Below are positions 1 to 45,439 of a stretch of DNA of 64,000 nucleotides, piece after piece (the first letter of the stretch is position 1; the number at the start of each line of letters is the position of its first letter). Location of the stretch: assembly GCF_028368975.1 (NCBI RefSeq), contig NZ_JAQNDM010000002.1, positions 1,426,001 to 1,490,000 on the forward strand, read 5' to 3'. The notes under the pieces were generated by a model. It was given only the letters and a program-made list of their open reading frames with translations, was not told where the DNA came from and did not search any database. This DNA is from Stigmatella ashevillena (lineage in GTDB: Bacteria > Myxococcota > Myxococcia > Myxococcales > Myxococcaceae). The translations under genes and the position numbers were made by a program.

Positions 1-542
1 GAGAAGCAGGTGGCATTGCCGGTACCGTCGTAGACGTCGATGTCCTTCGGCTTTCCGGCATAGGAGTGCCGCCGCAGGTAGTCGCTTGGGCTCGCCGCCA
101 CGAACACGCCCGTGGCCGACTTCTCGAGCCGGTGAGGGGCCATCCCAGAGCGCTCAAGCGCCTCCCAGCTGACCTCGAGCAGCATGCGCTGCTGCGGATC
201 CATGAGGATCGCCTCGCGAGGCGAGATACCGAAGAAACGGGCGTCGAACGTATCGATCGAATCGAGCATCCCGGCCCGGCGCGTGTACATCTTCCCGGAG
301 GACTTCGGATCTGGATCGTAGAAGGCGGCGACATCGAAGCGGTCTGGTGAGACCTCCGAGGTAGCGTCCTGGCCGGACGATAGCAGCCGCCAGAAGTCCT
401 CCGGGCTGGCCACCGAGCCAGGAAGACGGCACGACATCCCGAGGATGGCGATGGGCTCTGCGGTGAGCGAGAAGACCCTGGACTCGAGATCCCGGATGAC
501 GTGGAAGGCCTGCTGAAGCGGCGTGGGCTTGGTGGCGGTCAT
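1..542 (-). CDS. Type I polyketide synthase, N-terminal part (cut by window edge)
   Basis: This gene starts at an ATG 5 bases after the stop of the large synthase upstream, so the two are surely co-transcribed. Only about 180 residues are in the window. They show a short N-terminal docking helix (residues about 8-28), then the start of a ketosynthase (KS): the EPIAILGMSC opening, the FFGISPREA and DPQQR motifs, and a TGVFVAASPSDY stretch. The active-site Cys and everything after it lie beyond the left edge. It is therefore at least one more elongation module of the same assembly line. Whether a thioesterase follows cannot be seen. Confidence in the family is high; domain content past the KS is unknown. 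Confidence 0.95.
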   Translation of the reverse strand, partial: MTATKPTPLQQAFHVIRDLESRVFSLTAEPIAILGMSCRLPGSVASPEDFWRLLSSGQDATSEVSPDRFDVAAFYDPDPKSSGKMYTRRAGMLDSIDTFDARFFGISPREAILMDPQQRMLLEVSWEALERSGMAPHRLEKSATGVFVAASPSDYLRRHSYAGKPKDIDVYDGTGNATCF

Positions 543-547
543 TGCTG

Positions 548-10741
<10,194 letters not shown>

Positions 10742-10916
10742 CTCGCGGTCGCTAAAATGGCGAGGGCAGCCGGTGCGGCAAAGCGGCGCCGGGCAACTCT
10801 CGAAAAGAGGGAAACGGGCGTAGCTCCCACTGGGCAGCTCCTGTCGAAGACACTCACGGGATCGCACCGGAGCACGCAGCCAGAAAATCGACTCGACGTG
10901 GCGATCCGGCACAAGT

Positions 10917-11396: not shown

Positions 11397-14300
11397 TTGG
11401 CTACAGTGAATCGGGTCCTTCGCGCGCTCGAGCAGGCAGAAGCGAAGATCGTGGCGCTCGAGCAGCGGCGCGACGAACCGATCGCCATCGTGGGTCTCGG
11501 CTGCCGCCTTCCCAAGGGTGACTCTCCGGACGCTTTCTGGCGCGCACTTGACGCTGGAGTCGATGCGGTATCAGAAATTCCCGAGTCGCGTTGGCGGCTC
11601 GATTCCTCCTTGAGGAAGGCGCGCTGGGCGGCGCTGCTCGACGACAACGACGTCATGGGTTTCGATGCAGGCTTCTTCGGTATCTCACCGCGCGAGGCCG
11701 CAGCGATCGATCCGCAACAGCGGTTGTTTCTTGAGGTTTCGGTAGAGGCCCTCGAAGACGCGGGAATTCCGCTCGAGTCGGTTCGCGGCTCTCGAACGGG
11801 TGTGTTCGTCGGGATGATGACGTTGGACTATCAGCATCTCTCGATGGAGCGCCCGATAGACAAACTCGATATCTATACGTCCACGGGTATCGGTGCCTGT
11901 TTCGGCAGCGGGCGTCTTTCTCATATTCTTGGATTTGAAGGACCGTCGCTCTCCACCGACGCTGCCTGTTCGTCTTCGCTGGTCGCGCTGCACCTGGCTT
12001 GTCAGAGTTTGCGTACACGCGAATGTGATCTCGCCGTGGCCGGCGGCGTCAATTTGATGCTGTCGCCGTGGACGATGCACCTGTTCGTGAACATGCAGGC
12101 GCTCTCTCCCGAGGGACGCTGTCGCACGTTCGACGCAGGCTCCAATGGTTTCGTTCGCGGAGAGGGCTGCGGCGCCATCGCGCTCAAGCGTCTGTCGGAT
12201 GCGCTGCGCGATGGTGATTCGATTCGAGCGCTGGTGCGCGGGTCTGCCGTCAATCACAACGGGCGCTCGAGCGGTCTGACGGCGCCCAGCGTCCTGGCGC
12301 AGCGAGCGCTGTTACAACAGGCGCTGGCAGCGGCGCAGGTTCAGCCCCAGGACGTCGGCTATATCGAGGCGCACGGCATTGGCACCCCGCTGGGAGATCC
12401 AGTCGAGATCGAGGCCCTGAAAACCGTGCTCGGTGCGCCTCGCGCGGATGGCTCGAACTGCGTCGTCGGCTCGGTCAAGACCAATGTCGGCCATCTGGAG
12501 GCAGCAGCAGGGATCGCGGGGATCATCAAGACGGTCCTCGCCTTCGAGCACGAGCGCCTTCCACCTCATCTGCACCTTGAGGCCTTGAACCCTCGGATCG
12601 AACTCCAAGGGACGGCACTGACCATCTCCAGTGCTGGCCAGGCATGGCCGCGTGGCGCCCGGCCGCGGCGAGCAGGCGTGAGCGCGTTCGGCCTCAGTGG
12701 TACGAACGCGCACGTGGTCTTGGAGGAGGCCCCCGCTCCAACCGGCAGCGAGGCAGATCTTCCCGCCGATGCTCAACCTCACATCGTGGTGGTGACAGCC
12801 CGCAGCGAGGCGAGCTTGCGGCGCCTTGCTGGGCGATACGCGTCGTACCTGGAGGCAGAGCCCACTCCAGCGCTCCGGAACATCGCGTACACGACGACGA
12901 GGCGCCGCAGTCATCACCCCCATCGGCTGGCTGTGGTGAGCAAGACCTCCGGCGAGCTGGCCTCAAGCCTCCGAAAATGGCTCGATGGCGGCGAGACACC
13001 ACACCTGCGCGCCGGTCGCGCTGCTCCCAGCGGAGCGACGATCGTATTCCTGTATTCGGGCGACATAGGAACCTGGCGAGCGCTGGGACGCGAACTGGAC
13101 AAGCGTTCCGAGGCGTTTCACGGCGCACTTCAGCAATGCCAGGTGGCCTTCTCGGCGCTGGGCGCCGGAATCCCCCTGCTTGAGCTCCTGAGGGCAACCG
13201 TCGCGGAGCGGCCAGAGTTCTTCGAGCCGATGCTGTTCGCACTCCAAGTGGCCGTGACAGCGGAGTGGCGGGCCTGCGGCGTGGTGCCAGATCGCGTGCT
13301 GGGGGACGGCGTCGGCGAGATGGCCGCAGCGCATGCGGCAGGCATCTTGTCCCTCGAAGCCGCAGCTGAGGTGGTCTGGCGGCGCAGCGAGGCGATAGCA
13401 CGTTCCGGCGAGCACTCCCCTCCCCTGCACGCTGGAACGGCTGCTGCTCTTGAGTCGGCGCTGCGAGCGTTGGCCCCGAAGGATGGGCACATCCCGTTCT
13501 TCTCGACGGTGACTGGGGAACGTGAACCGGGCGAGTCCCTGAGCGGCACATATTGGGCACGCCACCTGCGTGAGCCAGCGCGGCTCGGCGAAGCGCTGCA
13601 GCAGGCACTGGGTGGTGAACCGGGCGTGGTGGTTCAGGTGAATGCCTCCCCATCAACGACGGCTGCCGTCACCCAGCTGATCGCACCGGGCGGCAACCAA
13701 GCCCGGGTTCGCGTTGCATCCAGCCTGCGCCCGGACGCGCCGGGGCGGCAGGCCCTGCTTGAAGCACTGGCAGAGGTGTTCGTCGCCGGAGGCGCCGTGG
13801 CATGGGCCGAGGGTCCTCATGCGAGCGGGAGACTGGTGCGCCTGCCCACCTACGCCTGGGAACTCGAGCGGCACTGGCTCGAACGAGCCGACGGCGCTCC
13901 GGTATCTACTCCAGCGGCTCGACCACCAGATGGCGCTGGGGCCGCAGAGCGTGAAGAGAAGGAGCGCAAAGCCTCGCCGCTCCTTGTCCAGCGGTGGCAA
14001 CCACGAGCGCCCGGACGTGAAGCGCAGGGTGAACTCTCGCAGACAGGCGGCAAGTGGTTGCTCGTGAGCAACGGCGAACCGCGCAGCGAGCGGTTGTCGG
14101 CCCTGCTTCGCGCCGCCGGTCAGGACGTGACCTCATGGCAGTGGGGCGACAGCGACGCCGACATCGAGGCAACGCTGTCCATGGCTTTCGGCGAAGAGGA
14201 GGCGCGCGGCATCGTGGTGTTGGGGGGCTCCACGCGCTCACTGCCAGGACCGAGCGACGGGGTGGGCCTCCAGGCGCAGGTGGAGCGGGAATGCAGGGAT

Positions 14301-16889
14301 GTTCTGCAGCTTGCCCAGCGCGCGGCGCAACGGCGTTGGCGGCGGTCTGCGCCGCGGCTATGGCTGCTCACCGAATCGTCACAGCGGGTCGTTCCGGACG
14401 AGGTGAGCGGTGAGGCGCCGACTGCATCGCTGCGCGGTGCCGCGCTATGGGGTCTGGGCCGGACGATCAGTCTGGAGCACCCTGAGCTGCGCTGCACGCG
14501 CCTGGATCTCGAGGCGCAAGCCGAGCTGGAACTGGTGGCTGCGGAGCTCCTCCGCGACGCTTCGGACGAAGAGCTGGGTCTACGCGGCACGTCGTGGTAC
14601 GCCGGGCACCTTGAGCGCCCCGGCCACGCGCCAACCCAAGCGAATCGCGAGCCCTCACAGGGGCGGCCTTTTCGCCTTGAACTTGATCGAGCCGGAATCC
14701 TCGATCAGATGAAGTTCCGCGTGGCGCAGGTGCTACCGCCCGGCCCCGGGCAGGTGCGCGTGAAGGTGGCCTCGGCGGGGCTGAACTTCATGGACGTGAT
14801 GACCGCCATAGGCATCTACCCGGGTGCCAACACCGGCGGCCTTGAGCCCATCGTACTGGGAGGAGAGTGCGCTGGGGTCATCGAAGCGGTTGGGCCGGGG
14901 GTCGAGGCCTTCTCGGTGGGCGATCAGGTGGTGGCGGTGGGCCGGGGGTGCTTCGGCTCGTCCCTCACGACGGACGCCGCTTACGTGCAGCGGCGGCCCG
15001 AAGGCCTGGACACGGTCCTGGCCGGTGGGGTCCCGATCGTGTTCCTCACCGCTTGGTACGCGCTCATCACGCTTGGCCGTCTGCAGCCGAAGGAGCGCGT
15101 TCTCATTCACTCGGCGGCGTCCGGCGTCGGGCTCGCCGCAGTGCAGATCGCGCAATGGCGCGGTGCTGACATCTACGTCACCGCAGGCACGGAGGAGAAG
15201 CGGGCACTGTTGCGGCAGATGGGCCTCACCACGGTCCTGGACTCGCGCACCCAGGCTTTCGCCGCCGAAGTGCTCGGCGCCACTGGTGGCGAAGGCGTGG
15301 ACATGGTGCTCAACTCCTTGTCAGGAGAGTCGATCGAATCGAGCCTTTCCACCCTGGCGAGCGACGGGCGCTTTTTCGAGATCGGCAAGACGGACATCTA
15401 CAGCGCGGATCGCGCGCTGAGCCTGTTGCCGTTTCGCAAGCGAATCTCGTACCAAGCGGTGGACCTGCTGGGCCTGGCGCAGGAGCGCAAGCAGCGCTTC
15501 GCGACGTTGTTCGCCGAGGTCATGGATGCGTTTGCCTCCGGCGTGCTCCGCCCACTTCCGACCGAGGTGTTTGGCGCGGCAAACACCCTCGAGGCGTTTC
15601 GGCACATGGCCTCGGGCCGACATACCGGCAAATTGGTGGTGAAAGTCGAGGGGGCCGAGGTCGAAGTCGAGCAGTCGAAGGCGCCGGTGATCGACGAGCG
15701 GGCCAGCTACCTGGTGACAGGAGGATCAAGTGCACTGGGGTTGTCGCTGACGGAGTGGCTCGTCGAGCAGGGAGCGCGGCGCATCGTATGGCTGAGTGGC
15801 CGCGGGCTGGCGGGTGTGCCCGCCTCGGAGGCGACGCGCCTGGAGGCTCTGCGTGCGCGCGGCCTCGAACTGAAGGCATGCGTGGGCGACGTGAGCCGAC
15901 AAGGCGAGGTGGCTGCCGCGGTGGCCGCGGCCGAAGCCCTGGGGCCCCTGCGCGGCGTAGTGCATGCAGCCGACGTGGACGACGGCGCGGGTGCGCGAAG
16001 CAGCACCGAGCCCAGCGCCGTGATGACGCCGAAGGTGGCCGGTGCCTGGAACGTGCACCTGGCGACCGAACGAGCGCCGCTGGACTTCTTCGTGCTCTGC
16101 TCGTCCACGTCGGCACTTCTCGGGGCACCGGGCCTCGCCTGGGACGCAGCGGCCAACGCCCTCTTGGATGGGCTGGCACGCCACCGACGAAGCCGCGGAC
16201 AGGTAGCGCTGAGCGTGCAATGGGGCCCGGTTGCCGCTGATGACGGTGGCGGCACCCTTGCCGCCGGGGGTGTCTGGAGCCTGGCTCCCCACGAGGCATG
16301 GCAGGCGCTGCGCGCGCTGCTCGCGGCTGGCACCGACAGTGCAGGCGTGATCCGCTTCAACGCCCGCCAGCTGATCGAATACCACCCTCACCTGGCCACC
16401 GGGACCCGCTTTCTGCCGTTGCTGGCCAGCGGTGACGAGCCCATTCAGGGAGGAGATCGCGCGCTGCTTGCCCGGTTGGCCAAGGCGAGCGAAGCCGAGC
16501 GTATCGCGCTCATCGAACAGCTGGTTCGCCAGCAACTGTCGCAGCTCCTCCGTGCGGACCTCGAGCGCATTGAACAGGATGTCCCCTTCAAGTCTCTGGG
16601 CATCGATTCGCTGATGGGACTCGAGCTGCGCAACCGCCTCGAAGCGGCGCTGGGCATCTCGCTGTCCGCGGCGCTGCTCTGGGCCTATCCCGATATGCGC
16701 TCGCTCCGCGAGTACCTGCTCAGCAGGTTGATCGTCAGTGTGCCGCCCGTGGTAGAGGAGCGCGGACCAGCCGTTCCGCGCGACGCGACCGATCAGAGCG
16801 CCTTGCTGGATCTGCGCCAGCTGTCGGACGAACAGAAGGCAGCGCGTCTTGAGCAAGAGCTCGAGTCACTCGAGCGCCTGCTGCAGTAA
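11397..16889 (+). CDS. Type I PKS-A: KS-AT(dead)-ER-KR(dead)-ACP
   Basis: A protein of 1830 residues with one module that looks unable to work alone. An N-terminal docking helix (3-26) leads into a KS with DAACSSS (Cys191) and HGIGT for the usual HGTGT; its His residues are present. The AT (about 530-800) is degraded: the opening GQGSQ is gone, the nucleophile motif GHSxG reads GDGVGE (Asp637, Gly638, so no His or Ser), and the subdomain carrying the YASH/HAFH motif is deleted. There is no DH. The ER (about 1085-1400) keeps LNFMDV, IGIYPG, the NADPH loop HSAASGVG and LNSLSGE, so it looks active. The KR (about 1420-1650) has GGSSALG but Trp1582-Asp1583 replace the catalytic Ser-Tyr pair of SYAAAN, so it is probably dead. 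The ACP has GIDSL (Ser1738). The start is TTG with GGGAG upstream. It is the only apparently intact ER in the window. Confidence 0.95.
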   Translation: MATVNRVLRALEQAEAKIVALEQRRDEPIAIVGLGCRLPKGDSPDAFWRALDAGVDAVSEIPESRWRLDSSLRKARWAALLDDNDVMGFDAGFFGISPREAAAIDPQQRLFLEVSVEALEDAGIPLESVRGSRTGVFVGMMTLDYQHLSMERPIDKLDIYTSTGIGACFGSGRLSHILGFEGPSLSTDAACSSSLVALHLACQSLRTRECDLAVAGGVNLMLSPWTMHLFVNMQALSPEGRCRTFDAGSNGFVRGEGCGAIALKRLSDALRDGDSIRALVRGSAVNHNGRSSGLTAPSVLAQRALLQQALAAAQVQPQDVGYIEAHGIGTPLGDPVEIEALKTVLGAPRADGSNCVVGSVKTNVGHLEAAAGIAGIIKTVLAFEHERLPPHLHLEALNPRIELQGTALTISSAGQAWPRGARPRRAGVSAFGLSGTNAHVVLEEAPAPTGSEADLPADAQPHIVVVTARSEASLRRLAGRYASYLEAEPTPALRNIAYTTTRRRSHHPHRLAVVSKTSGELASSLRKWLDGGETPHLRAGRAAPSGATIVFLYSGDIGTWRALGRELDKRSEAFHGALQQCQVAFSALGAGIPLLELLRATVAERPEFFEPMLFALQVAVTAEWRACGVVPDRVLGDGVGEMAAAHAAGILSLEAAAEVVWRRSEAIARSGEHSPPLHAGTAAALESALRALAPKDGHIPFFSTVTGEREPGESLSGTYWARHLREPARLGEALQQALGGEPGVVVQVNASPSTTAAVTQLIAPGGNQARVRVASSLRPDAPGRQALLEALAEVFVAGGAVAWAEGPHASGRLVRLPTYAWELERHWLERADGAPVSTPAARPPDGAGAAEREEKERKASPLLVQRWQPRAPGREAQGELSQTGGKWLLVSNGEPRSERLSALLRAAGQDVTSWQWGDSDADIEATLSMAFGEEEARGIVVLGGSTRSLPGPSDGVGLQAQVERECRDVLQLAQRAAQRRWRRSAPRLWLLTESSQRVVPDEVSGEAPTASLRGAALWGLGRTISLEHPELRCTRLDLEAQAELELVAAELLRDASDEELGLRGTSWYAGHLERPGHAPTQANREPSQGRPFRLELDRAGILDQMKFRVAQVLPPGPGQVRVKVASAGLNFMDVMTAIGIYPGANTGGLEPIVLGGECAGVIEAVGPGVEAFSVGDQVVAVGRGCFGSSLTTDAAYVQRRPEGLDTVLAGGVPIVFLTAWYALITLGRLQPKERVLIHSAASGVGLAAVQIAQWRGADIYVTAGTEEKRALLRQMGLTTVLDSRTQAFAAEVLGATGGEGVDMVLNSLSGESIESSLSTLASDGRFFEIGKTDIYSADRALSLLPFRKRISYQAVDLLGLAQERKQRFATLFAEVMDAFASGVLRPLPTEVFGAANTLEAFRHMASGRHTGKLVVKVEGAEVEVEQSKAPVIDERASYLVTGGSSALGLSLTEWLVEQGARRIVWLSGRGLAGVPASEATRLEALRARGLELKACVGDVSRQGEVAAAVAAAEALGPLRGVVHAADVDDGAGARSSTEPSAVMTPKVAGAWNVHLATERAPLDFFVLCSSTSALLGAPGLAWDAAANALLDGLARHRRSRGQVALSVQWGPVAADDGGGTLAAGGVWSLAPHEAWQALRALLAAGTDSAGVIRFNARQLIEYHPHLATGTRFLPLLASGDEPIQGGDRALLARLAKASEAERIALIEQLVRQQLSQLLRADLERIEQDVPFKSLGIDSLMGLELRNRLEAALGISLSAALLWAYPDMRSLREYLLSRLIVSVPPVVEERGPAVPRDATDQSALLDLRQLSDEQKAARLEQELESLERLLQ

Positions 16890-16901: not shown

Positions 16902-27035
<10,134 letters not shown>

Positions 27036-27041
27036 CCGATC

Positions 27042-30000
27042 ATGTCGACCCCCGATACCGTCGAAACCCGCAAAGCGCTGCTTCGTCAAGCGCTGTCCAA
27101 GATCGAGGGGCTGGAGCAACGGCTCTCCCGGGCAGAGCAATCTCGAGACGCGCCGATCGCGGTGGTCGGAGTGGCGTGCCGATTCCCCGGGGACGCGACA
27201 ACTCCGGAGCGCTACTGGCAAAACCTGGCGGCGGGCCGTGACGCGGTGAGCGAGGTGCCGCCCGACCGCTGGGACAACGCCGCCTGGTTCGACCCGGATC
27301 CGGAAGTGTCGGGCAAGACGTCCTCGCGTCACGGCGGATTCCTCGGCACCATCGATCAGTTCGATGCGCCGTTCTTCGGCATCGCGCCGCGCGACGCACG
27401 CTCGATGGACCCGCAGCAGCGCCTGGTCCTCGAGTGTGTATGGGAAGCGTTCGAGCGCGCTGGGATCCCACCCGCCTCACAAGCCGGGAGCCGCACCGGG
27501 GTGTTCGTCGGCATCGCCGCCACCGACTACGGCTGGCTGATTCAGGACAGCAAGGGCGCGACAGCGCTCGATGCCTATTTCTTGACCGGCGTCGCCCCCA
27601 GCTTCATCTCCGGGCGCACCGCTCACGTGTTCGGATTCGAGGGGCCGGCTGTTTCGATCGACACCGCCTGCTCCTCATCGCTGGTGGCGGTACACCTCGC
27701 CTGCAGCAGCTTGCGCCTCGGCGAGACCGATACCGCGGTTGCCGCCGGCGCCAATTTGCTCCTCGCGCCAATGTCGCAGGTCATGATGTCCAAGGTCGGC
27801 GTCCTGTCGGCCTCGGGACGCTGCCGTGCGTTTGACGCGACCGCGGATGGCTTCGTCCGCGGTGAAGGGATCGGTGTGGTCGTCCTCAAGCGACTGGCCG
27901 ACGCGGTGGCCGCCGGCGACCCAGTGCTGGCCGTCATCCGTGGCACTGCGGTCAACCAGGACGGCGCCACCAACGGCCTCACGGTCCCGAGCAAGAAGGC
28001 CCAGGAGCGGGTGATTCGATCCGCGCTCGACAACGCCCGGATGACCCCCCATGACGTGACCTATGTGGAGGCCCACGGGACTGGGACTGCCCTGGGCGAT
28101 CCCATCGAACTGCGGGCGCTGGGAGACGTCTACGGCAAGGATCGCCCACAGGACCGCCCTCTCTACGTCGGCTCGGTCAAAACCAACTTTGGCCACACCG
28201 AAGCAGCGGCTGGAATTGCCGCGTTCATCAAGGTGATCCTGGCGCTCGGGAACGAGGGCATTCCTCCGCACCTGCATTTCCAAAGACCCAGCCCTCACGT
28301 GGATTGGAGCCGCTTGGGGATCCAGATTCCCACGGTGATGGTCCCGTGGGGCACCTCTCGGCGCGTCGCCGGTGTGAGCGCCTTCGGGGCCAGTGGCACC
28401 AACGCTCACGTCATTGTCGAAGCACCGCCAGTCCGCGAGGGCACCGCCGAAACAGCACAAGCCCCAGATTCGCTGCGCGCCGAGTTGGTGGTGGTTTCGG
28501 CTCGCAGCGACACCGCAGTGTCGGAACTGGCGCAGGCCTTCGTGGGACACCTGGAGAACGAGCCGACGGTACCGCTCGCCGAACTGGCAGCAAGCGCAGC
28601 AGGGAGCCGCAGCCACCACGAGCATCGGATCGCGGCCGTCGCCGAGAGCCCGGGAGAACTCGCCACCGTGCTCTCGGACCTGGCCCGCGCCACGCCACGT
28701 GCCGAGGGAGCACAGGGCCGCGCAGATCCCGATGCGCGCCCCCGGATCGCATTCGTGTTCCCAGGCCAGGGCTCCCAATGGGCCGGGATGGGGCGTGAGT
28801 TACTGGCCCAGGAACCGGTGTTTCGCAGCGCGGTGGAGCGCTGTGCCGAGGCCTTCTCCCCCCACGTGGACTGGTCACTGATCAGCGTGCTCAATGGGGG
28901 TGCCGAGGCGGATCGCATCGACATCGTGCAGCCAGCGCTGTTCGCTATGTCCGTTGGACTCGCCGCGTTGTGGCGCTCTTGGGGAATTGTGCCCGACGCG
29001 GTGATCGGCCACAGCATGGGCGAGGTGGCAGCCGCGCACGTGGCCGGGGCTCTGTCCCTGGAGGACGCGGCACGCATCATCTGCCGCCGCAGTCGGCTGC
29101 TCCGCACGGTCAGCGGTCAAGGGGCGATGGCGGTCGTCGAACTCGGGGTAGAGAAGGCACAGGCGCGCCTGCAATCGCGAGCAGCACTGCTTTCGGTTGC
29201 CGTTCACAACGGCCCCCATTCCACGGTGATCGCCGGGGAGACCGCAGCACTCGAAGCGCTGCTCCGCGAACTCGAAGCGGAGTCGGTGTTCTGCCGACGG
29301 GTCCACGTCGACGTCGCCTCTCACAGCCCTCAGATGGACGCCCTGCGCGCACCACTCCTGGCCGAACTCGCCGGGCTGGCGCCGCGTCCCGGAACCACGC
29401 CGATCTACTCCACGGTGACGCAACAGGTGCTGGCTGGCGGCGAACTCGACGCGCCCTATTGGGCTCGCAACCTTCGCGATCCGGTCCAGTTCGCTCCGAT
29501 GATCGATCGCCTGCTCGGCGACGGCCACACCGTGTTTGTGGAAATCAGTCCGCATCCGATTCTGCTGCCGATCCTCGAGGAGAGCTTGGCCCGCAAGGGG
29601 GGCGGCGCGTCAGCGGTGGGCAGCCTCCGCCGCGAGCGTTCAGCGCGACGGATGCTCCTGCAAGCGCTCGGTGAGCTTTACGTGAGGGGCGCTCCGGTCC
29701 AGTTCTCGGCGCTTTACCCAAAACCACGCCGACTCCGGCTGCCGACCTACCCGTTTCAACGCGAGCGGTACTGGATCACCCCGGGAACTCGGCGCGAACA
29801 CCGGGCAGAGGCAACAGGCGGTCTGCTCGGAGTCGGGATCGAGTCTTCTGTGGCGAGCCGCACTGCCATCTGGCAGCGGTGGTGGAGCAGCGACAACGCA
29901 GGTTTCCTCGGCGAGCATTCGGTCTCTGGCTCGCCCTTGGTGCCATCGACGCTTTATCCGCTGCTGGCGGCCGAAGCGGCACGCCGCGCCGGAGCCGTCG

Positions 30001-33000
30001 CACCCCAGGCAGTGAGCGAGTTCGTCTTCGGTGCCCCACTGGAGCTTGGCTCATCATCAGAGCAGGGGCGAGAGCTGCAACTGGCATGGCTCGGAGCGGC
30101 GAGCAAGCCTGGCCGTTTCCGTGTGTCCAGTCGCCGTGTCGGCGAGGGGTGGACGGTGCACGCGGGCGGCCGGGTGACAGCAGCAGCAGCGAGTACATCC
30201 GCCGAGCCGCTCGAGGCCGTACGCGGAAGACTCGCGCGCGGAGTCCCCAGCGCAGAGCTGTACCGTGCGATGGAGGCCAACGGCATCGTCAACGGGCCCA
30301 GCCTGCGTCCGATCGAAGAGCTGTTTATTGGAGAGGGCGAGGCACTGGCGCGCCTGGTGCTCTCCGAACGTGCCGCCCGTGCCACTCACGGATTGGCCAT
30401 CCATCCTGCCCTCTTCGACGGTGCGCTACAGGCTGTCGGCGCGGTCCTGGCTTCTTCGGTGAAGGGGGCAGGCGCGCCGCTGCCTGCCAAGATCGAGCAC
30501 ATGCTCGTGCAGACGTCGGCCGCCACGAGCGGCTGGAGCCACGTGCGCGTGCGGGCCCTCTCAGAAGGGCGATGGAGCGCCGACGTCACATTGTGGGACG
30601 ACGCCGGAACGCCGCTGGCGCTGGTCACGGGCCTGCACCTCGAGCGTCCAGCAGCGTCTCGCCAACAGGCGGCTGGCCTGTTTCGCCCGAGCTGGGAACA
30701 CGCTCCGTTACCGGAGCCCGAGACATTCGCGTCTCAGCCGCCGACCGAGCGCTGTCTGATTGTCGCCAGATCTGGCGCCTTTGGCCGTGCGCTCCGGGAT
30801 AGCCTGCTCTCACGGACGCAAGACGTGCGCCTGTATGAAGCCAACGGCCCGCTCGGTCCAGAGGAGGTATCTCAAGCCATCGGCGGCGACACGATCGCCT
30901 GGAGCGCCATCGTCTACGTGCCCCGCAGCGCCAGCGGGACACACGAGGCAGCGGCGGAGTTGCTGTCCGAGATCGCAGCAGATCTGCAGGCGCTGTCGCT
31001 CGCTGCCGCAGCGCTTGCCATTGTGCCCACGCTCTCCATCGTGACCGAAGCCACCGGAATCCAGGACGAGGCACGAGCGATCTCGACCTTGGCGGTCCTC
31101 CAGGCAGCCGCCGACGCTGTCGCCCGAGGCGTATCACCACTCCGCTGCACGCGGATCGCGTGGACACGGGGCGCGCCACTCGACGGCGTGGTCCGAGAAC
31201 TCCTGGAGCGGCCAGGCGAAGACGAGGTGGCATGGCGCCCTGATGGGCGCTACGTGGCCCGGTTGCGCCGTCCTCCATTGGAATTGCCCGTGGTCCATCA
31301 AGCGTACACGGGCGAGCCGTGCCGGTGGGTGGCTGGGAGAACCGGAGAGCTGGGTGGCCCATCGCTTCGCGCCGCCATCCGAAGGACGCCGGGTCCCGGC
31401 GAGGTCGAACTCCAGGTTCGCGCCGTCGGATTGCCTGCCCATGGCCTCGAGGAGGCACTCGCCGCGGATGGGGCCATGCCGGGTCTCGAATACTGCGGGA
31501 CGGTGGTGGCGCTCGGCCAAGGGGTCAGTCAGGCTGCCATCGGTGACGAGGTGCTCGGAATCGTGCGTGGCGGATTGGCCTCTCATGTCACCGCGCCAGC
31601 CGCCCATCTGCTGCGTCGGCCGGAGGCCCTCACCGCACCGCATGCGGCTGGCACCGCCCTCCCCTATGCAGCAGCCTGGTACGCGCTGCACGAAGCCGGA
31701 CGAATCGAGCGCGGCGAACGCGTCTTCATCCATGGAGCAGCCACCGGCATCGGCCTCGCTGCCGTGCATCTCGCGCTGCGGGCTGGGGCCGAGGTCCATG
31801 CCTCGGCTGCGCCGTCCCAGTTGGCGTCTCTGAGAGGCCTCGGCGTCACCAGCGTTGCCGACGCCAGTGCATCGGGACTTGTCGACGAAATTCTACGCGC
31901 CACCTCAGGGAGAGGGGCACACGTGGTGTGCAACACCCTCCCCGGCGCTGCGGGGGCTCTGGCCGCACTGCTCACCCGCGGCGGACGGCTCCTAGAGCTG
32001 GCACCACGCACCTCGAAGGTGACGCTCCTCGAGAACGAGGCATTCGAACAAGACCTCCACCACAGCCTCCTGCACCGCCGTCTCTCCTATCACTGCATCG
32101 ATTTGGCAGTGCTCGCGGAGGATCGGCCTGCCTCCTATCGTGCCGCGCTGGAGCAGGTTCTGGCACTGCTCGGACGCGGCGAACTCGCCCTCCTGCCCGT
32201 CCGCTCGTATGCCCTGGGCGAAGCCGCGCAGGCCCTGAACGCTCGGGCGAGCGGCGACGAGGCCGACAATCGGGTCCTCTCCTTCGAAGACAGCAGCACT
32301 GTGCACCTCTCGGTGCCCATGCCTCCTTGGACGGGGATCTCGCCCGAAGGCACCTATCTGCTCGGCGGAGATGGCTCGGCGATGAGTGCCCTGCTGGTGC
32401 GCTGGCTCGCCAAGGAGGGTGCGTCTCACATCGTCGTGGTCACGCCACCCGCTGATGACAACGATGGCCCATCCGCCGAACTCGCCCGGGCAATCCACGA
32501 AGCAGCGACCTCTGGACGACGGGTCGAGTGGAAGCGCCAGGCGAACCTCGCTCGCGAACACTGGGAACAGATTCTGCGGCCTGAAGACGGCGAGACTCCT
32601 CGCTGGAGAGGAGTCTTCTACGGCGCATCGCCGTCTGAGGGCCCCCTTGGCCTGGACTGGACGGAGAAGGTGATCCCAGCCCTTGAGCTTGCAGCGGCCA
32701 TGGGAGGCCTCTCGCTAGACAGCTTCGCACTCGTCAGTCCGCTCGGCACCCGTATTTGGAGCAACGAAGAGACGCTCGTGTCGGCCTTCTCCGCCATCGC
32801 GGAGGCGAGCTGCCGTGCTGGGCTTCCAGCGCTGGCACTGGCACTGGCGCCCTCTGGCACCGGCCCCAGTGACGATCGCGCTGCCCACGCCACTGAGCTG
32901 GCGCGCCTCCTGCGCGAAGCGCTCGCGACCCGCCAGTCGCAACTCGTCGCATTGCCAGCCCGGCTCGATGAGAGCTGGCTCGAGCGCGTACGCGCGCAAC

Positions 33001-33398
33001 AGCGCTTCGCCGAGCCGGTCGCTGAGCTGGCCACCTCGGCGGCACTGGCCTCGACGAAGAACGCCTTGCTCGCCATCAGCGATCCGCAAGTCCGGAGAGC
33101 CCACCTCGACGAGTTGCTGCGGACCCAACTGGCCGCAGTCCTCGGCATGGAGGCCTCACGGCTCCACGCGCAGACCCAGCTCCATGGGCTGGGGCTTGAT
33201 TCACTGATGGCGCTCGAGCTGCGCAAGCGGATCGAGCAAGCGCTGGGCGTTCGGCTGTCTGCCGCCCTCCTCTTGGCAGGAGGCGCGCTCGCCAAACTTG
33301 TCGATCACCTCGTCGAGCTCTGGGAGGGGTCCGAAGGATCGCCCGCCGTCCCGAGCGGAGACGGCAACCACAACGCGGAGGTGAAGTCTCATGCCTGA
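27042..33398 (+). CDS. Type I PKS-C: KS-AT-DH-ER(dead)-KR(dead)-ACP
   Basis: A protein of 2118 residues, ATG six bases after PKS-B. It opens with a docking helix (6-34). KS has DTACSSS (Cys210) and HGTGT. AT has GHSMGE (Ser658) and VASH, methylmalonyl-like. DH is complete by motif: HSVSGSPLVP (His959) and FDGALQ (Asp1126). ER (about 1420-1720) keeps the NADPH loop HGAATGIG but has lost the LNFxDV/YPG catalytic stretch (now LPAHGLEEAL), and LNSLSGE reads CNTLPGA. KR (about 1745-1960) has a broken nucleotide loop GGDGSAMS and no recognisable Ser/Tyr active site. ACP has GLDSL (Ser2054). With no ketoreduction the good DH has no substrate, so the module should leave a beta-keto group, as module 2 of PKS-B does. 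It has the full length of a fully reducing module, so this looks like decay of one rather than a simple condensing module. Confidence 0.95.
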   Translation: MSTPDTVETRKALLRQALSKIEGLEQRLSRAEQSRDAPIAVVGVACRFPGDATTPERYWQNLAAGRDAVSEVPPDRWDNAAWFDPDPEVSGKTSSRHGGFLGTIDQFDAPFFGIAPRDARSMDPQQRLVLECVWEAFERAGIPPASQAGSRTGVFVGIAATDYGWLIQDSKGATALDAYFLTGVAPSFISGRTAHVFGFEGPAVSIDTACSSSLVAVHLACSSLRLGETDTAVAAGANLLLAPMSQVMMSKVGVLSASGRCRAFDATADGFVRGEGIGVVVLKRLADAVAAGDPVLAVIRGTAVNQDGATNGLTVPSKKAQERVIRSALDNARMTPHDVTYVEAHGTGTALGDPIELRALGDVYGKDRPQDRPLYVGSVKTNFGHTEAAAGIAAFIKVILALGNEGIPPHLHFQRPSPHVDWSRLGIQIPTVMVPWGTSRRVAGVSAFGASGTNAHVIVEAPPVREGTAETAQAPDSLRAELVVVSARSDTAVSELAQAFVGHLENEPTVPLAELAASAAGSRSHHEHRIAAVAESPGELATVLSDLARATPRAEGAQGRADPDARPRIAFVFPGQGSQWAGMGRELLAQEPVFRSAVERCAEAFSPHVDWSLISVLNGGAEADRIDIVQPALFAMSVGLAALWRSWGIVPDAVIGHSMGEVAAAHVAGALSLEDAARIICRRSRLLRTVSGQGAMAVVELGVEKAQARLQSRAALLSVAVHNGPHSTVIAGETAALEALLRELEAESVFCRRVHVDVASHSPQMDALRAPLLAELAGLAPRPGTTPIYSTVTQQVLAGGELDAPYWARNLRDPVQFAPMIDRLLGDGHTVFVEISPHPILLPILEESLARKGGGASAVGSLRRERSARRMLLQALGELYVRGAPVQFSALYPKPRRLRLPTYPFQRERYWITPGTRREHRAEATGGLLGVGIESSVASRTAIWQRWWSSDNAGFLGEHSVSGSPLVPSTLYPLLAAEAARRAGAVAPQAVSEFVFGAPLELGSSSEQGRELQLAWLGAASKPGRFRVSSRRVGEGWTVHAGGRVTAAAASTSAEPLEAVRGRLARGVPSAELYRAMEANGIVNGPSLRPIEELFIGEGEALARLVLSERAARATHGLAIHPALFDGALQAVGAVLASSVKGAGAPLPAKIEHMLVQTSAATSGWSHVRVRALSEGRWSADVTLWDDAGTPLALVTGLHLERPAASRQQAAGLFRPSWEHAPLPEPETFASQPPTERCLIVARSGAFGRALRDSLLSRTQDVRLYEANGPLGPEEVSQAIGGDTIAWSAIVYVPRSASGTHEAAAELLSEIAADLQALSLAAAALAIVPTLSIVTEATGIQDEARAISTLAVLQAAADAVARGVSPLRCTRIAWTRGAPLDGVVRELLERPGEDEVAWRPDGRYVARLRRPPLELPVVHQAYTGEPCRWVAGRTGELGGPSLRAAIRRTPGPGEVELQVRAVGLPAHGLEEALAADGAMPGLEYCGTVVALGQGVSQAAIGDEVLGIVRGGLASHVTAPAAHLLRRPEALTAPHAAGTALPYAAAWYALHEAGRIERGERVFIHGAATGIGLAAVHLALRAGAEVHASAAPSQLASLRGLGVTSVADASASGLVDEILRATSGRGAHVVCNTLPGAAGALAALLTRGGRLLELAPRTSKVTLLENEAFEQDLHHSLLHRRLSYHCIDLAVLAEDRPASYRAALEQVLALLGRGELALLPVRSYALGEAAQALNARASGDEADNRVLSFEDSSTVHLSVPMPPWTGISPEGTYLLGGDGSAMSALLVRWLAKEGASHIVVVTPPADDNDGPSAELARAIHEAATSGRRVEWKRQANLAREHWEQILRPEDGETPRWRGVFYGASPSEGPLGLDWTEKVIPALELAAAMGGLSLDSFALVSPLGTRIWSNEETLVSAFSAIAEASCRAGLPALALALAPSGTGPSDDRAAHATELARLLREALATRQSQLVALPARLDESWLERVRAQQRFAEPVAELATSAALASTKNALLAISDPQVRRAHLDELLRTQLAAVLGMEASRLHAQTQLHGLGLDSLMALELRKRIEQALGVRLSAALLLAGGALAKLVDHLVELWEGSEGSPAVPSGDGNHNAEVKSHA
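33377..33384 (+). promoter_or_regulatory. Strong ribosome binding site for the P450 inside the PKS-C end
   Basis: GGAGGTGA lies 6 bases before the P450 ATG at 33391, within the last codons of PKS-C. It marks the overlapping start as real and would let the P450 be translated well relative to the synthases. Confidence 0.7.
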
Positions 33399-34787
33399 AG
33401 TCGCTGAAATGAAGTCTGCCAAGGAAGGCTTTCCAGAGGGTCCATCGAGCGCATTCTGGACCTCGGTGCGCTATGCGCGCGATCCGGTGGGCCTCTATCG
33501 AGCGCTTACCAAGTACGGCGACGGTCACACCGTCACGATGCCGCTGCTGCTGGGGCCCATCGTGGGAGCGGTCAGCCCACAAGCCGCCAAGGACATCTTG
33601 ACCGCCGATACGGCGTCGCTCGACATCTTCGGCCCGGAGGCGCTGGCCATGGTCTTCCGGCCGCGTTCCCTCGTCATGCTGTCGGGTGAGCAGCACGCGC
33701 GTGAGCGCAAGCTCTTGATGCCGGCGTTCAACCGGGCAGATGCCGTCCGCGCCTATGCCGTGACGATGCAGGAGACGGCGCTCCAGTACGCGAGCGAGAT
33801 CGCCGTGGGCAAGCCGTTCGTCATGCAGAAGCTCGCCCAGCGGATCCTGCTCCAGGTAGTCATCCGCGATGTGTTTGGCGTGACGGAGCCCGCCGAGCAG
33901 ACGGAGCTCAAGCAGCGCGTTCGCGAACTCTTCGAGGCGTCGTCGCCTGCCCTCATCTTCTTCCCGGGACTCCGCCATCGCTTCGGCGGGATTGGCCCGT
34001 ACGCCAACTGGCAGCGCGCCGACGCGCGGCTGACTCGGCTCATCCACGACCTCATCGCCCGGCGCCGCGCCGCGCCCCCTGGCTCCAAGGTGGACGTCCT
34101 CAGTCTCCTGCTCACGGCGCGCTACGAAGACGGCAGCGTGCCCAGCGATGAGGTCGTCCACGACGAGCTGATGGCGCTGTTCTTCGCCGGGCACGCGGCA
34201 ACGGCGACAACCATCTCCTGGGTGTTTCACTGGCTGCACCGATATCCGGAGACGCTGGCCAAGCTGCGCCAGGAGCTGGCCACCCTGCCTCAAGACACCG
34301 AGCCGATGAGCTACATGAAGCTTCCGTACCTCGAGGCGGTGTGCAACGAAACCCTGCGCATCTACCCGCCCGTGGCAGATCTGTACCGCAAGCTCCGGGT
34401 TCCACTCCGTATCGGATCGAACACCGTCCCGGCGGGGACTGGCGTCGCGGTGTTCACGACGATCATTCATGCGCGGGAAGATCTCTTTCCAGAGCCGATG
34501 CGATTTCGCCCCGAGCGTTTCGCCGAGCGAAACTTCACCCCCTTCGAGTTCCTGCCGTACGGAGCGGGCGCACGGCGGTGCATCGGAGCCGCCTTCGCCC
34601 ATCAAGCGCTGAAAATCGTGGTTGCGTCGATCTTGCGCCAATGGGAACTCAGTCTGGAGACGCAGGACGAGCCGGCGGTGCGCCAGGGTGTGGGTGTGGG
34701 ACCCAAGCACGGAGTGCGGATGCGCATCCTCCGCAACGCGACCGAGGCGCGGGCGCCGGGCGCCGCAGGATCGAGCACGGTGCTGTC

Positions 34788-34791
<4 letters not shown>
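33391..34791 (+). CDS. Cytochrome P450 monooxygenase
   Basis: A soluble bacterial P450 of 466 residues that presumably hydroxylates or further oxidises the polyketide. The start overlaps the PKS-C stop by 8 bases, and its own TGA overlaps the PKS-D ATG (ATGA), so all three are translationally coupled. Visible motifs are the K-helix ExxR (NETLRIYPP), the PERF-type RPERF, and the haem loop [13 protein letters not shown] with Cys397 as thiolate ligand. The I-helix normally reads AGHETT; here it is AGHAAT, so Ala269 and Ala270 stand where the Glu and Thr that help split oxygen usually sit, with Thr271 one place later. This may be tolerated through substrate assistance, as is known for EryF, which lacks the Thr. 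No redox partner gene is seen in the window. Regiochemistry cannot be told from sequence. Confidence 0.93.
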
Positions 34792-42911
<8,120 letters not shown>

Positions 42912-42934
42912 GCAGCATGATCGAGGGCAATCCC

Positions 42935-44437
42935 ATGGAAAAGAAGACTCCCATCGTGATCGTGGGCGCTGGACCTTGCGGCCTCGCGGCGGCCTGCGGA
43001 CTCCGGCGCCGTGGCATCGAGGCGACCGTATTGGACTCCTCGGCTGAGCCGGGCAGCGGCTCGCGGGCCATCCTCTTGTGGCCGCCGGTGCTCGATGTGC
43101 TCGACGAGCTGGGCCTGCTGCCCGAGGCCGAGAAGCACGGCTATCGTCCTCGCGCGCTGTGCTACCACACCAGCCGCAAGCGGACGATCCGCTTGCCGCT
43201 CGACAAGGTGGACGGCCCGCTGGTGCTCCGCCAAGACCGCACCAGCCGGCTGCTCGAGGCGGCGTTGGAGAAGCTGGGTGGCCGCGTCGAGCGGCCGGTT
43301 CGCGTCACCGAGGTTGTCGCCGGAGACGATGCGGTACGGGTCAAGGCCGAAGGCCCTGGCGGGGCCTCGCTGTCCTACGCGGCTGACTGGCTGATCGGCG
43401 CCGATGGGGCGCACAGCACCGTCCGCAAGCTGCTGGGGATCGAGTTTGTTGGCACGGAGTTCTCGCGCTCGTTCGCGCTCGCCGAGGGACAGGTTGAGGG
43501 CGAGTTCGATCGCGAGGATGCCCACTATTACGTTACGCCCGCTGGCGTGCTCGTGGTGATCGCCCTGCCCGGCGGAGAGGTCCGGCTCAGCGGAGCCCTC
43601 GACGAGGGCGAGCAACTCAGCCTCGAAGCGGTGCAGCGCCTGCTCGACCGGCGCGGCCCAGGGCATCTGCGCGTCTCAAACCCGAGCGTGCTCACCACCT
43701 TCAGCGCCCCGCATCGAGTCGCCTCGACGATGCGCATTGGCCGTTGTTTCCTGGCTGGCGACGCCGCCCATGTGCATTCCCCGGCCGGAGGCCAGGGTCT
43801 CTCCCTCGGAATGCAGGACGTTCGCAATCTGGTGTGGAAGCTTGCTGGCGTGATCGACGGCCGGTTGGCTCCAGCGATCCTCGACAGCTACGATCTCGAG
43901 CGAAGGGCAGCGGCACAGCAAGTGGTGAAGTCCATCCACCAGCTGACCCGCCAGACCTTGTTCCCGCCAATGGCACTGCGCGTCCGCAACGCCGTGCTGA
44001 ACCTCCTCCATCGCGCAGGGCGCTTGCAGAACATCTTGGTGCCGTCCCTGGCCGGACGGCAGATTCACTATCCGGATGTGCTCTTCGGGGAGCCGCTATC
44101 ACCCGGGCCCAGCAAGCAGAGGCGGCGCGCCGACGCCCTGCCGACCGCGGGAATGCAGGCCCCGGCTTGGGCTCCGAAAGATGCTGGCAAGAACCTGGAC
44201 GGCTTCCGCTTGATCACCGCAGGACCCAGAGACAGCGCGCTGGCGCAACGCGCCGGTCAACTTGCCGAGGGTCGGCCCTCGATCGCCGAATACCACCACC
44301 TTGCCGAGGCCAAAGAGGGCTTTTTGCTGCTCCGCCCGGACGGCTACGTGGCCGCCAGTGGGCAGGCCGCTCCGCAGCTCGATCAAGCATGGCAGCGGTT
44401 GGAGCGCATCGTGCAGCAGCCCAAGGCGGTGGGCTGA
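42935..44437 (+). CDS. FAD-dependent aromatic-hydroxylase-type monooxygenase
   Basis: A class A flavoprotein monooxygenase (PHBH/phenol hydroxylase-like) of about 500 residues, last gene of the rightward operon. Seen are the FAD dinucleotide fold [13 protein letters not shown] at the N terminus, the DG motif [12 protein letters not shown], and the GD motif [18 protein letters not shown] that binds the ribityl chain. A C-terminal thioredoxin-like region ends in DGYVAASG, typical of the longer members. Two starts are possible: ATG 42917 and ATG 42935. GAGGG seven bases before the second favours it, giving [11 protein letters not shown]. It probably hydroxylates or oxidises the polyketide after or during assembly; a Baeyer-Villiger reaction is possible for this class but not shown by sequence. 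A weak hairpin (44430-44446) overlaps the stop and lacks a T-run. Confidence 0.92.
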
Positions 44438-44530
44438 GCAAGCCCAACGGTGGAGGGTGTACGCAAAGGCTTTCGGCGGTAACCCCGCCCGCGTCTCTCT
44501 TCGTTGGGGAATCAGACGGCTCCTGGATCC

Positions 44531-45439
44531 ATGAACGAGCACTACCCCAGGGTCCGGATCTTCGCGAGCCACGGTGCCCCCATTCTTCGTGAGGGCATCA
44601 CGATCTGCTTCTACATGCGCCGTTCCCACCACGAGGTCGCGCGTGCCGTACAGCAATCGATGGATGCCTACTTGCGCACAGTGGGACCCCACACCCTGGC
44701 ATGGTACACGGGCCAGGATGACTGGCAGATGTTGGACGCCCACAGTTGGGACAGTCTCCGGCACAAGTTCCTCGAGAAACCTTGGCCCTGCCTTGAATTG
44801 AAAGATGACCCTGCAGGCGTTCATGGATTCGGGATGGAGTACTACGGCAAGTGGTTTGAGGACCCCCGTGGACTTCAAGAACCGGACATGGTGTCCGCCC
44901 TTGGTTTTTGGCTACCCACGGAGTTCCTGGAAGCGCAAGGGCCCGTTGCCGTGCGCAACTTGGCCCTGGAGTTGGCCGATCCTCTGCCCTTCTGCTCGGG
45001 CCACGCGGGCCTTTCTTTCCATGCTGTGCATGGCTATCGAGAGACTGAAGAGAAGCTCAGTCAATTGTGCCTGCGCTACCCAGGCATGGATGTGACCCTG
45101 CTTCGAACTCTGTCCTGGAAGCTCGGGGCGCGAGTCAAAGGGCCTGCTTGGCTCACATTTCTTGGACAGCCTGCCCTCGGCGAAGTGAGGGGGATCGATG
45201 GATTACGCGCTCGCCTCTTCTCCCCGAGCACCACTGTCCAGCAGTTGCAGGAAGAACGGGCCATCGTCACTCTCGGCCCATGGCCCAAAGCAGGAGACAC
45301 CGAGGCAGGAGACCACCTTCCCGCGTACCGAGAACTGGCGTCCGTGCTGGAACCTGCCCTGTACCGGTCATCCGAGCCCTGGTCGCCTTACTTTCCCAAG
45401 GATACCTGGCAGCGATGGGAACGGCGTTTCGTAGATTGA
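44531..45439 (+). CDS. DUF3396 (type VI immunity-like) protein
   Basis: A protein of about 302 residues that I recognise as DUF3396, a family in which some members are immunity proteins for type VI secretion nuclease effectors and many myxobacterial copies are of unknown use. Seen are an N-terminal FYMRRSHHEVA stretch, a central GFWLPTEFLEA block, a SFHAVHGY segment and the C-terminal WLTFLGQPALG plus VTLGPWPKAGD. No signal peptide or membrane segment is visible, so it should be cytoplasmic. The ATG at 44531 is preferred over an upstream in-frame TTG (44504) because neither has a good ribosome site and ATG is commoner. It lies about 95 bases after the monooxygenase but looks unrelated to polyketide synthesis. 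No toxin-like neighbour is present. A broken second copy lies at 46598-46999. Confidence 0.75.
   Translation: MNEHYPRVRIFASHGAPILREGITICFYMRRSHHEVARAVQQSMDAYLRTVGPHTLAWYTGQDDWQMLDAHSWDSLRHKFLEKPWPCLELKDDPAGVHGFGMEYYGKWFEDPRGLQEPDMVSALGFWLPTEFLEAQGPVAVRNLALELADPLPFCSGHAGLSFHAVHGYRETEEKLSQLCLRYPGMDVTLLRTLSWKLGARVKGPAWLTFLGQPALGEVRGIDGLRARLFSPSTTVQQLQEERAIVTLGPWPKAGDTEAGDHLPAYRELASVLEPALYRSSEPWSPYFPKDTWQRWERRFVD

Follow-up and report, generated by a model that had tools for sequence, protein, structure and literature searches.

A cytochrome P450 of a myxobacterial polyketide cluster with alanine at both positions of the I-helix acid-alcohol pair and without the L-helix glutamate

The 64-kb window, meaning the whole stretch of DNA analysed, covers one arm, and a portion of the second, of a modular type I polyketide cluster, whose genes are given in Table 1 together with the diagnostic residues of a cytochrome P450 encoded between PKS3 and PKS4. 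The overlaps and spacing of the genes suggest that PKS1, PKS2, PKS3, the P450, PKS4 and a FAD monooxygenase form one operon. Solved relatives of the FAD monooxygenase include rifampin monooxygenase and a flavin-dependent Baeyer-Villiger monooxygenase. The far end of the cluster lies outside the window and contributes two further P450 genes close to the window edge (L019:12112-13542 and within L019:13370-14878). The source genome comprises 10.95 Mb in two contigs and gives 18 P450 matches, two of which (L009 and L018) overlap.

Table 1. Genes of the cluster within the window and residues of the P450 discussed in the text
Feature	Position	Strand	Remarks
PKSm0, start	1-542	-	extends past the window edge towards another two P450 genes
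PKSm1, two modules, divergent arm	548-10912	-	
PKS1: KS-dead AT-ER-dead KR-ACP	11397-16889	+	
PKS2: KS-AT-DH-KR-ACP / KS-AT-dead KR-ACP	16902-27035	+	
PKS3: KS-AT-DH-ER-dead KR-ACP	27042-33398	+	overlaps P450 start by 8 bases
Cytochrome P450 gene	33391-34791	+	uninterrupted ORF, 466 aa
Arg90 for Gly before helix C	33658-33660	+	R in 3/3 orthologues, G in 46/46 relatives
I-helix segment AGHAATA, residues 266-272	34186-34206	+	sequence
Ala269 and Ala270 codons (GCG, GCA)	34195-34200	+	sequence, alignment
ExxR motif E320-T-L-R323, intact	34348-34359	+	sequence
Asp330, place of BM3 Ala330	34378-34380	+	D in 3/3 orthologues
Tyr390 for FxxGxxxC Phe (BM3 Phe393)	34558-34560	+	Y in 3/3 orthologues, F in 46/46 relatives
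Heme-thiolate Cys397, intact	34579-34581	+	sequence
Ala406 for L-helix Glu	34606-34608	+	A/A/S in 3 orthologues, E in 46/46 relatives
PKS4: ACP-KS-AT-AT-DH-ER-KR-ACP	34788-42911	+	start overlaps P450 stop (ATGA)
FAD monooxygenase (PF01494)	42917-44437	+	last operon gene

Searches of 59, 96 and 195 genomes, in overlapping sets, located two orthologues of the P450, one in the same genus (G005, 95% identity) and one in another genus of the same family (G017, 78%), with the next best match at 43% (G022). The nine genes used as synteny queries (PKSm1, PKS1-4, three P450s and the FAD monooxygenase; PKSm0 was left out) occur in the same order in the three genomes. An ORF directly after the cluster (44504-45439) matches TsiV (PF11876, a type VI immunity family) with 192 bits, and on the other side L019:5289-8645 (minus strand) encodes two FtsX/MacB-type permeases and an ABC ATPase, a possible exporter adjoining the cluster; neither has a counterpart in the stretches of G005 and G017 compared at an E limit of 1e-20. 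About 9 kb past the conserved block L019:1180-3513 (plus strand) encodes a protein with AT, nitronate-monooxygenase-like and FabD-insert domains (trans-AT/ER type), for which the G005 and G017 stretches give weak AT matches only (33-36%).

The AT and KR domains of the PKS proteins were called dead from their catalytic motifs. The PKS1 AT is without its catalytic Ser (GDGVG or GDGIG) and the PKS1 KR without its Tyr (replaced by Asp); PKS1 is probably unable to load its own extender. Both the catalytic Ser and Tyr are missing from the KR of PKS2 module 2 and from the PKS3 KR. These dead domains (PKS1 AT and KR, PKS2 module-2 KR and PKS3 KR) are common to the three genomes in a domain comparison that covered the PKS proteins other than PKSm0. 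From the dead KRs of PKS2 module 2 and PKS3 a β-keto, and hence enolisable, ketone-bearing chain is predicted. No thioesterase match was found in the PKS proteins scanned, a set that left out the first 181 residues of PKSm0, and a chain ending in PKS2-PKS3 would carry two adjacent ketones and be released without a thioesterase, perhaps as a pyrone or furanone. PKS4 has an architecture of the kind used by chain-starting modules of other myxobacterial clusters and may be a loading module; it is late in the operon yet begins with an ACP and carries tandem ATs, and the genes may not stand in the order of chain assembly. An aurafuron-like furanone pathway was considered because of the P450, the FAD monooxygenase and the missing thioesterase, and is neither favoured nor excluded.

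The P450 matches the PF00067 profile with 212.9 bits (cut-off 22.8), and with heme ligand Cys397 and an ExxR motif it belongs to the P450 superfamily, with Tyr390 at the Phe of the FxxGxxxC motif. The AlphaFold model (mean pLDDT 86.5, pTM 0.87), which contains neither heme nor water, gives Z scores of about 38-41 with the folds of CYP51, CYP184A1, CYP120A1 and BM3, and shows residues 253-284 of the I helix as a single unbroken helix. Arg395 and Arg396 are retained (Arg in 45/46 and 28/46 relatives, respectively) and the Cys loop is of the same length as in the relatives; together with Cys397 and the ExxR motif these features fit heme binding and electron uptake, although they are no proof of either. 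The original prediction that both ExxR and the Cys loop are normal is correct for ExxR and wrong in part for the Cys loop, where Tyr stands for Phe. The closest sequences, sharing fold and motifs, are same-phylum Glu-Thr P450s (L024-L032) and cyanobacterial plasmid P450s, with identities of 37-43% to the former, which are unnamed, and 29-37% to the latter; over the 25 plasmid matches listed the range is 28-37%. Membership of a CYP family calls for about 40% identity or more with its named members, and the label "CYP110-like" is tentative; the sequences compared carry no family labels.

Residues 266-274 of the P450 read AGHAATATT. The alignment with 46 related P450s (one per locus from L024-L087, leaving out identical sequences and the own-genome loci L001-L018) runs without gaps through the I helix, and positions 269/270 are Glu-Thr in 46/46 relatives and Ala-Ala in 3/3 orthologues, the latter number including the P450 itself. 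These positions correspond, in canonical numbers, to Asp251/Thr252 of P450cam, Glu244/Ala245 of EryF and Glu267/Thr268 of BM3, the numbering being tied to PDB chains by fragment checks in which the P450cam and EryF chains count one off. Because the P450 aligns gap-free to Glu-Thr relatives, the claim that acid and alcohol are both replaced by Ala within AGHAAT is borne out, and the alignment places no other acid-alcohol pair at the oxygen-binding kink. A shifted alignment in which Thr271 would be the true alcohol was considered and is ruled out by the absence of gaps on both sides. A 40-residue query of the PDB gave 42 matches, and no Ala-Ala occurs in the five alignments viewed, which is a weak test for another P450 with AGHAA. 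The cluster's own P450a and P450b have Ala-Thr and Glu-Ser at the two positions. The second cluster P450 at L019:12112-13542 (plus strand), about 6-8 kb outside the left end of the window, reads AAFATT in the three genomes, with the acid replaced by Ala and the Thr retained; its copy in this genome retains the L-helix Glu, and the gene is 93% identical to that of G005 and 76% to that of G017.

The change at the I helix is part of a wider pattern, which the original prediction does not mention. Out of 14 residue columns that are invariant in the 46 relatives (two gap columns having been dropped), five are altered in all three orthologues, namely G90R, E269A, T270A, F390Y and E406A/A/S, and three of the five are proton-relay residues (269, 270 and 406). 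Position 406 (Cys+9) is equivalent to Glu366 of P450cam, Glu360 of EryF and Glu409 of BM3, the offsets having been verified on PDB chains. Both members of the I-helix pair and the counterpart of the L-helix Glu are thus lost from the P450, and every one of the 46 relatives has Glu-Thr, the Cys-loop Phe and the L-helix Glu, whereas the P450 has none of them. The same count made for 22 other lineages, with 14 to 18 invariant columns each, gives no change in 13, one in six, two in two and 4/18 in one (L087), so that the P450 clade has the most altered invariant columns among the 23 lineages; the match at L087, the second-highest lineage, carries in-frame stops.

A broader set of 95 same-phylum P450 rows was compared at these positions; the rows are the loci ranked best by the searches, not a random sample, take in the own-genome loci L001-L018 and include a few partial repeats of one gene (e.g. 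L005 and L014). Only the three orthologues are without all three relay groups. Cys+9 is Glu in 87 rows, Gln in four, Ala in two, Ser in one and Phe in one, and the Cys-loop Phe is present in 92/95, with the three orthologues having Tyr. L012 (Ala-Pro) and L017 (Gly-Pro) are also without acid and alcohol and retain the L-helix Glu. Arg at position 90 occurs in five rows in all, two beyond the orthologues. Named plasmids give 686 records with P450 matches; of these, five P450s were compared, and each has the L-helix Glu and the Cys-loop Phe. The P450 of Chroococcidiopsis plasmid pB (L118:295-1662) has AGQDAS, in which the Asp is kept, the Thr is replaced by Ala and a Ser is adjacent, much as in EryF; this Asp-Ala enzyme nevertheless retains the L-helix Glu, unlike the present P450. 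The clade also has new polar residues, among them Asp330, where 38/46 relatives have Val, Leu, Ile or Met. The BM3 equivalent, Ala330, is described as an active-site residue (PMC11900375), and Asp330 may be a candidate substitute acid, perhaps a distant one, or a substrate anchor. Tyr390 had been considered as a strong redox tuner, a role weakened by the report that BM3 F393Y is similar to wild type (PMC9820634); the substitution may be neutral for that reason. Single members of the pattern can thus be neutral, and the strength of the case lies in the joint and conserved loss.

Both orthologues retain AGHAAT and a 12-residue stretch of the protein. The original prediction called for a survey of relatives, and the survey finds Ala-Ala common to three orthologues in two genera. 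Codons 269/270 are GCG GCA, GCG GCG and GCG GCG in the three orthologues, and this difference in the spelling of the two Ala codons excludes a sequencing slip. The dN/dS ratio of the P450 (Nei-Gojobori) is 0.076 against G005, below those of the five other cluster genes compared (0.082-0.151), and 0.354 against G017, above those of the same five (0.224-0.324). All these ratios are far below 1 and the P450 gene is under purifying selection; low dN/dS and the agreement of the orthologues despite differing codons rule out a sequencing error or a pseudogene. In the tree the three orthologues form a clade with 100/100 support, whose stem measures 0.82 changes per site, with L024/L063 as the sister pair (support 93/85). 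Since this clade branches from within the Glu-Thr P450s, the loss of the pair is derived; as judged from the sequences, it would either have arisen once before the genera split or have travelled between genera with the cluster.

The original prediction compared the enzyme with EryF (CYP107A1), in which the 5-OH of the substrate is the direct donor to dioxygen and Ser or Thr in place of Ala245 reduces activity (PMC10741444). The comparison is apt at the alcohol: both are P450s of polyketide pathways in which Ala (Ala245 and Ala270) replaces the conserved Thr and has a hydroxy residue beside it (Ser246 and Thr271). It does not extend to the acids, as EryF keeps Glu244 and Glu360 whereas the P450 has Ala at both (Ser406 in one orthologue), leaving one of the two EryF-type residue features present. 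Glu360 and Glu244 are proposed members of a hydrogen-bond network in EryF, and with E244D and E360D the product titre is only 17% and 38% of that of wild type (PMC9049603). Because EryF keeps and needs both residues the analogy is only partial, and an EryF-type relay is not one that the P450 could copy residue for residue, since both Glu counterparts are missing. As to the third lost group, a water chain of P450cam reaches Glu366 via the widened I helix (PMC3840065).

The P450 probably activates oxygen with help from the substrate or performs less usual chemistry. The likeliest reading, though one that could well turn out otherwise, is that of an active heme-thiolate oxygenase of the modular polyketide pathway that takes its protons from the polyketide, from water or from both. 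The enzyme descends from ordinary AGHETT P450s, both residues of the I-helix pair and the L-helix Glu having been lost in one lineage, and would still accept electrons and O2. The proton for O-O cleavage would come from the polyketide, as an enol or hydroxyl of the β-keto-rich chain, together with ordered water, and oxygen activation would await the right substrate, as in EryF but taken further. A β-keto chain would offer enol OH groups for the supply of protons and equally ketones for nucleophilic peroxo attack. Against protons from the substrate stand the incomplete analogy with EryF, whose two retained glutamates are both important, and the ratio of 0.354 against G017 as the highest of six genes. 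In addition, by analogy with engineered BM3 variants that tolerate loss of the acid and are active with E267V among other changes (PMC11900375), single losses might matter less than supposed.

The tolerance of BM3 for E267V also bears on the idea that the P450 is an ordinary monooxygenase, in which water relays the protons, pocket groups such as Asp330 and Thr271 compensate and the outcome is routine hydroxylation. Asp330 is new, present in 3/3 orthologues and located at a BM3 active-site position, Thr271 is retained, and aromatase T310A, though it leaks hydrogen peroxide, keeps 36% of its activity toward androstenedione (PMC9366932). On the other side, aromatase D309N loses 95% of the activity toward 19-oxo androstenedione and compound I is not formed (PMC9366932), position 330 may line the pocket short of the O2 site, and the joint loss of the relay is confined to orthologues (3/95 rows); routine hydroxylation is on this evidence unlikely. 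A somewhat less unlikely course is that a longer-lived ferric-peroxo or hydroperoxo species attacks a ketone, aldehyde or alkene of the polyketide in place of C-H hydroxylation by compound I, with C-C cleavage, Baeyer-Villiger-like insertion or epoxidation as the outcome. All three relay groups are gone, the dead KRs predict a chain with a ketone, and chemistry of this kind survives in P450s that have lost the acid or the alcohol. Hydroxylation by CYP17A1 E305G and T306A is down 10-15 fold with no significant effect on the C-C lyase reaction, which is read as peroxo-anion chemistry, and a hemiketal specific to the lyase path has been detected (PMC13312268); this lyase reaction shows an inverse solvent isotope effect. 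P450cam T252A epoxidises 5-methylenylcamphor, having lost effective hydroxylation (PMC9112060). These are single laboratory mutations, whereas the P450 shows a natural and conserved double loss plus that of the L-helix Glu. Thr-to-Ala mutants of several P450s, however, uncouple or leak hydrogen peroxide (PMC9366932, PMC9112060, PMC11900375), the BM3 Thr268 variants among the former (PMC11900375), and the FAD monooxygenase of the same operon, with a Baeyer-Villiger enzyme among its solved relatives, could do the step itself. The more specific proposition of a natural P450 stripped of proton delivery that directs a nucleophilic ferric-peroxo species at a polyketide ketone, as a native counterpart of CYP17A1 E305G/T306A and P450cam T252A, is likewise doubtful.

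Chemistry that dispenses with O2 activation is improbable. It could take the form of a rearrangement or dehydration of a hydroperoxide or endoperoxide, or a cyclisation, as in CYP74 and CYP8 (allene oxide, divinyl ether and prostacyclin synthases), or of peroxide use as in the CYP152 peroxygenases (BSβ, SPα and OleT). The Cys-loop Phe is not conserved in CYP74 and CYP8, which function without O2 activation (PMC11900375), and the acid-alcohol pair is lost from CYP152 as it is from the P450. CYP152 enzymes have instead an Arg-Pro that binds the fatty-acid carboxylate and a different proximal loop (PMC5818669), whereas the P450 has Ala-Ala with a loop of the usual length and falls outside CYP152, scoring 41.9 bits with the CypC model of that family (cut-off 600). 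Furthermore, the loop length and Arg395/396, as in the relatives, fit electron delivery, and no peroxide or hydroperoxide source is evident among the cluster proteins scanned. Hardly to be expected is a catalytically dead or auxiliary P450 retained for binding, in the manner of the P450-like glycosyltransferase activators. The loss of the relay residues would suit it, as would the conservation of several dead domains elsewhere in the cluster, but the heme Cys, ExxR and predicted fold are intact, the gene is under purifying selection and the model of P450-derived glycosyltransferase activators (TIGR04515) gives 25.4 bits against a cut-off of 343.

P450s without the Thr or without the pair are known already; what is new is the joint absence of the I-helix pair and the L-helix Glu from a conserved biosynthetic enzyme. 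Searches of one open-access library directed at pair-less P450s or at clusters of this type led to papers on EryF and CYP105N1 and to no description of such a joint loss, which is limited evidence. In the work cited, proton delivery was cut in laboratory mutants and the picture is confused by uncoupling and hydrogen peroxide leakage. A natural enzyme maintained by selection without the three relay groups would reveal what replaces them, whether the substrate, water or chemistry in which a second proton is not required, and the three orthologues, their canonical relatives and five defined residues make the question testable. For genome mining, the pattern marks a pathway in which plain hydroxylation should not be assumed for the oxidation step.
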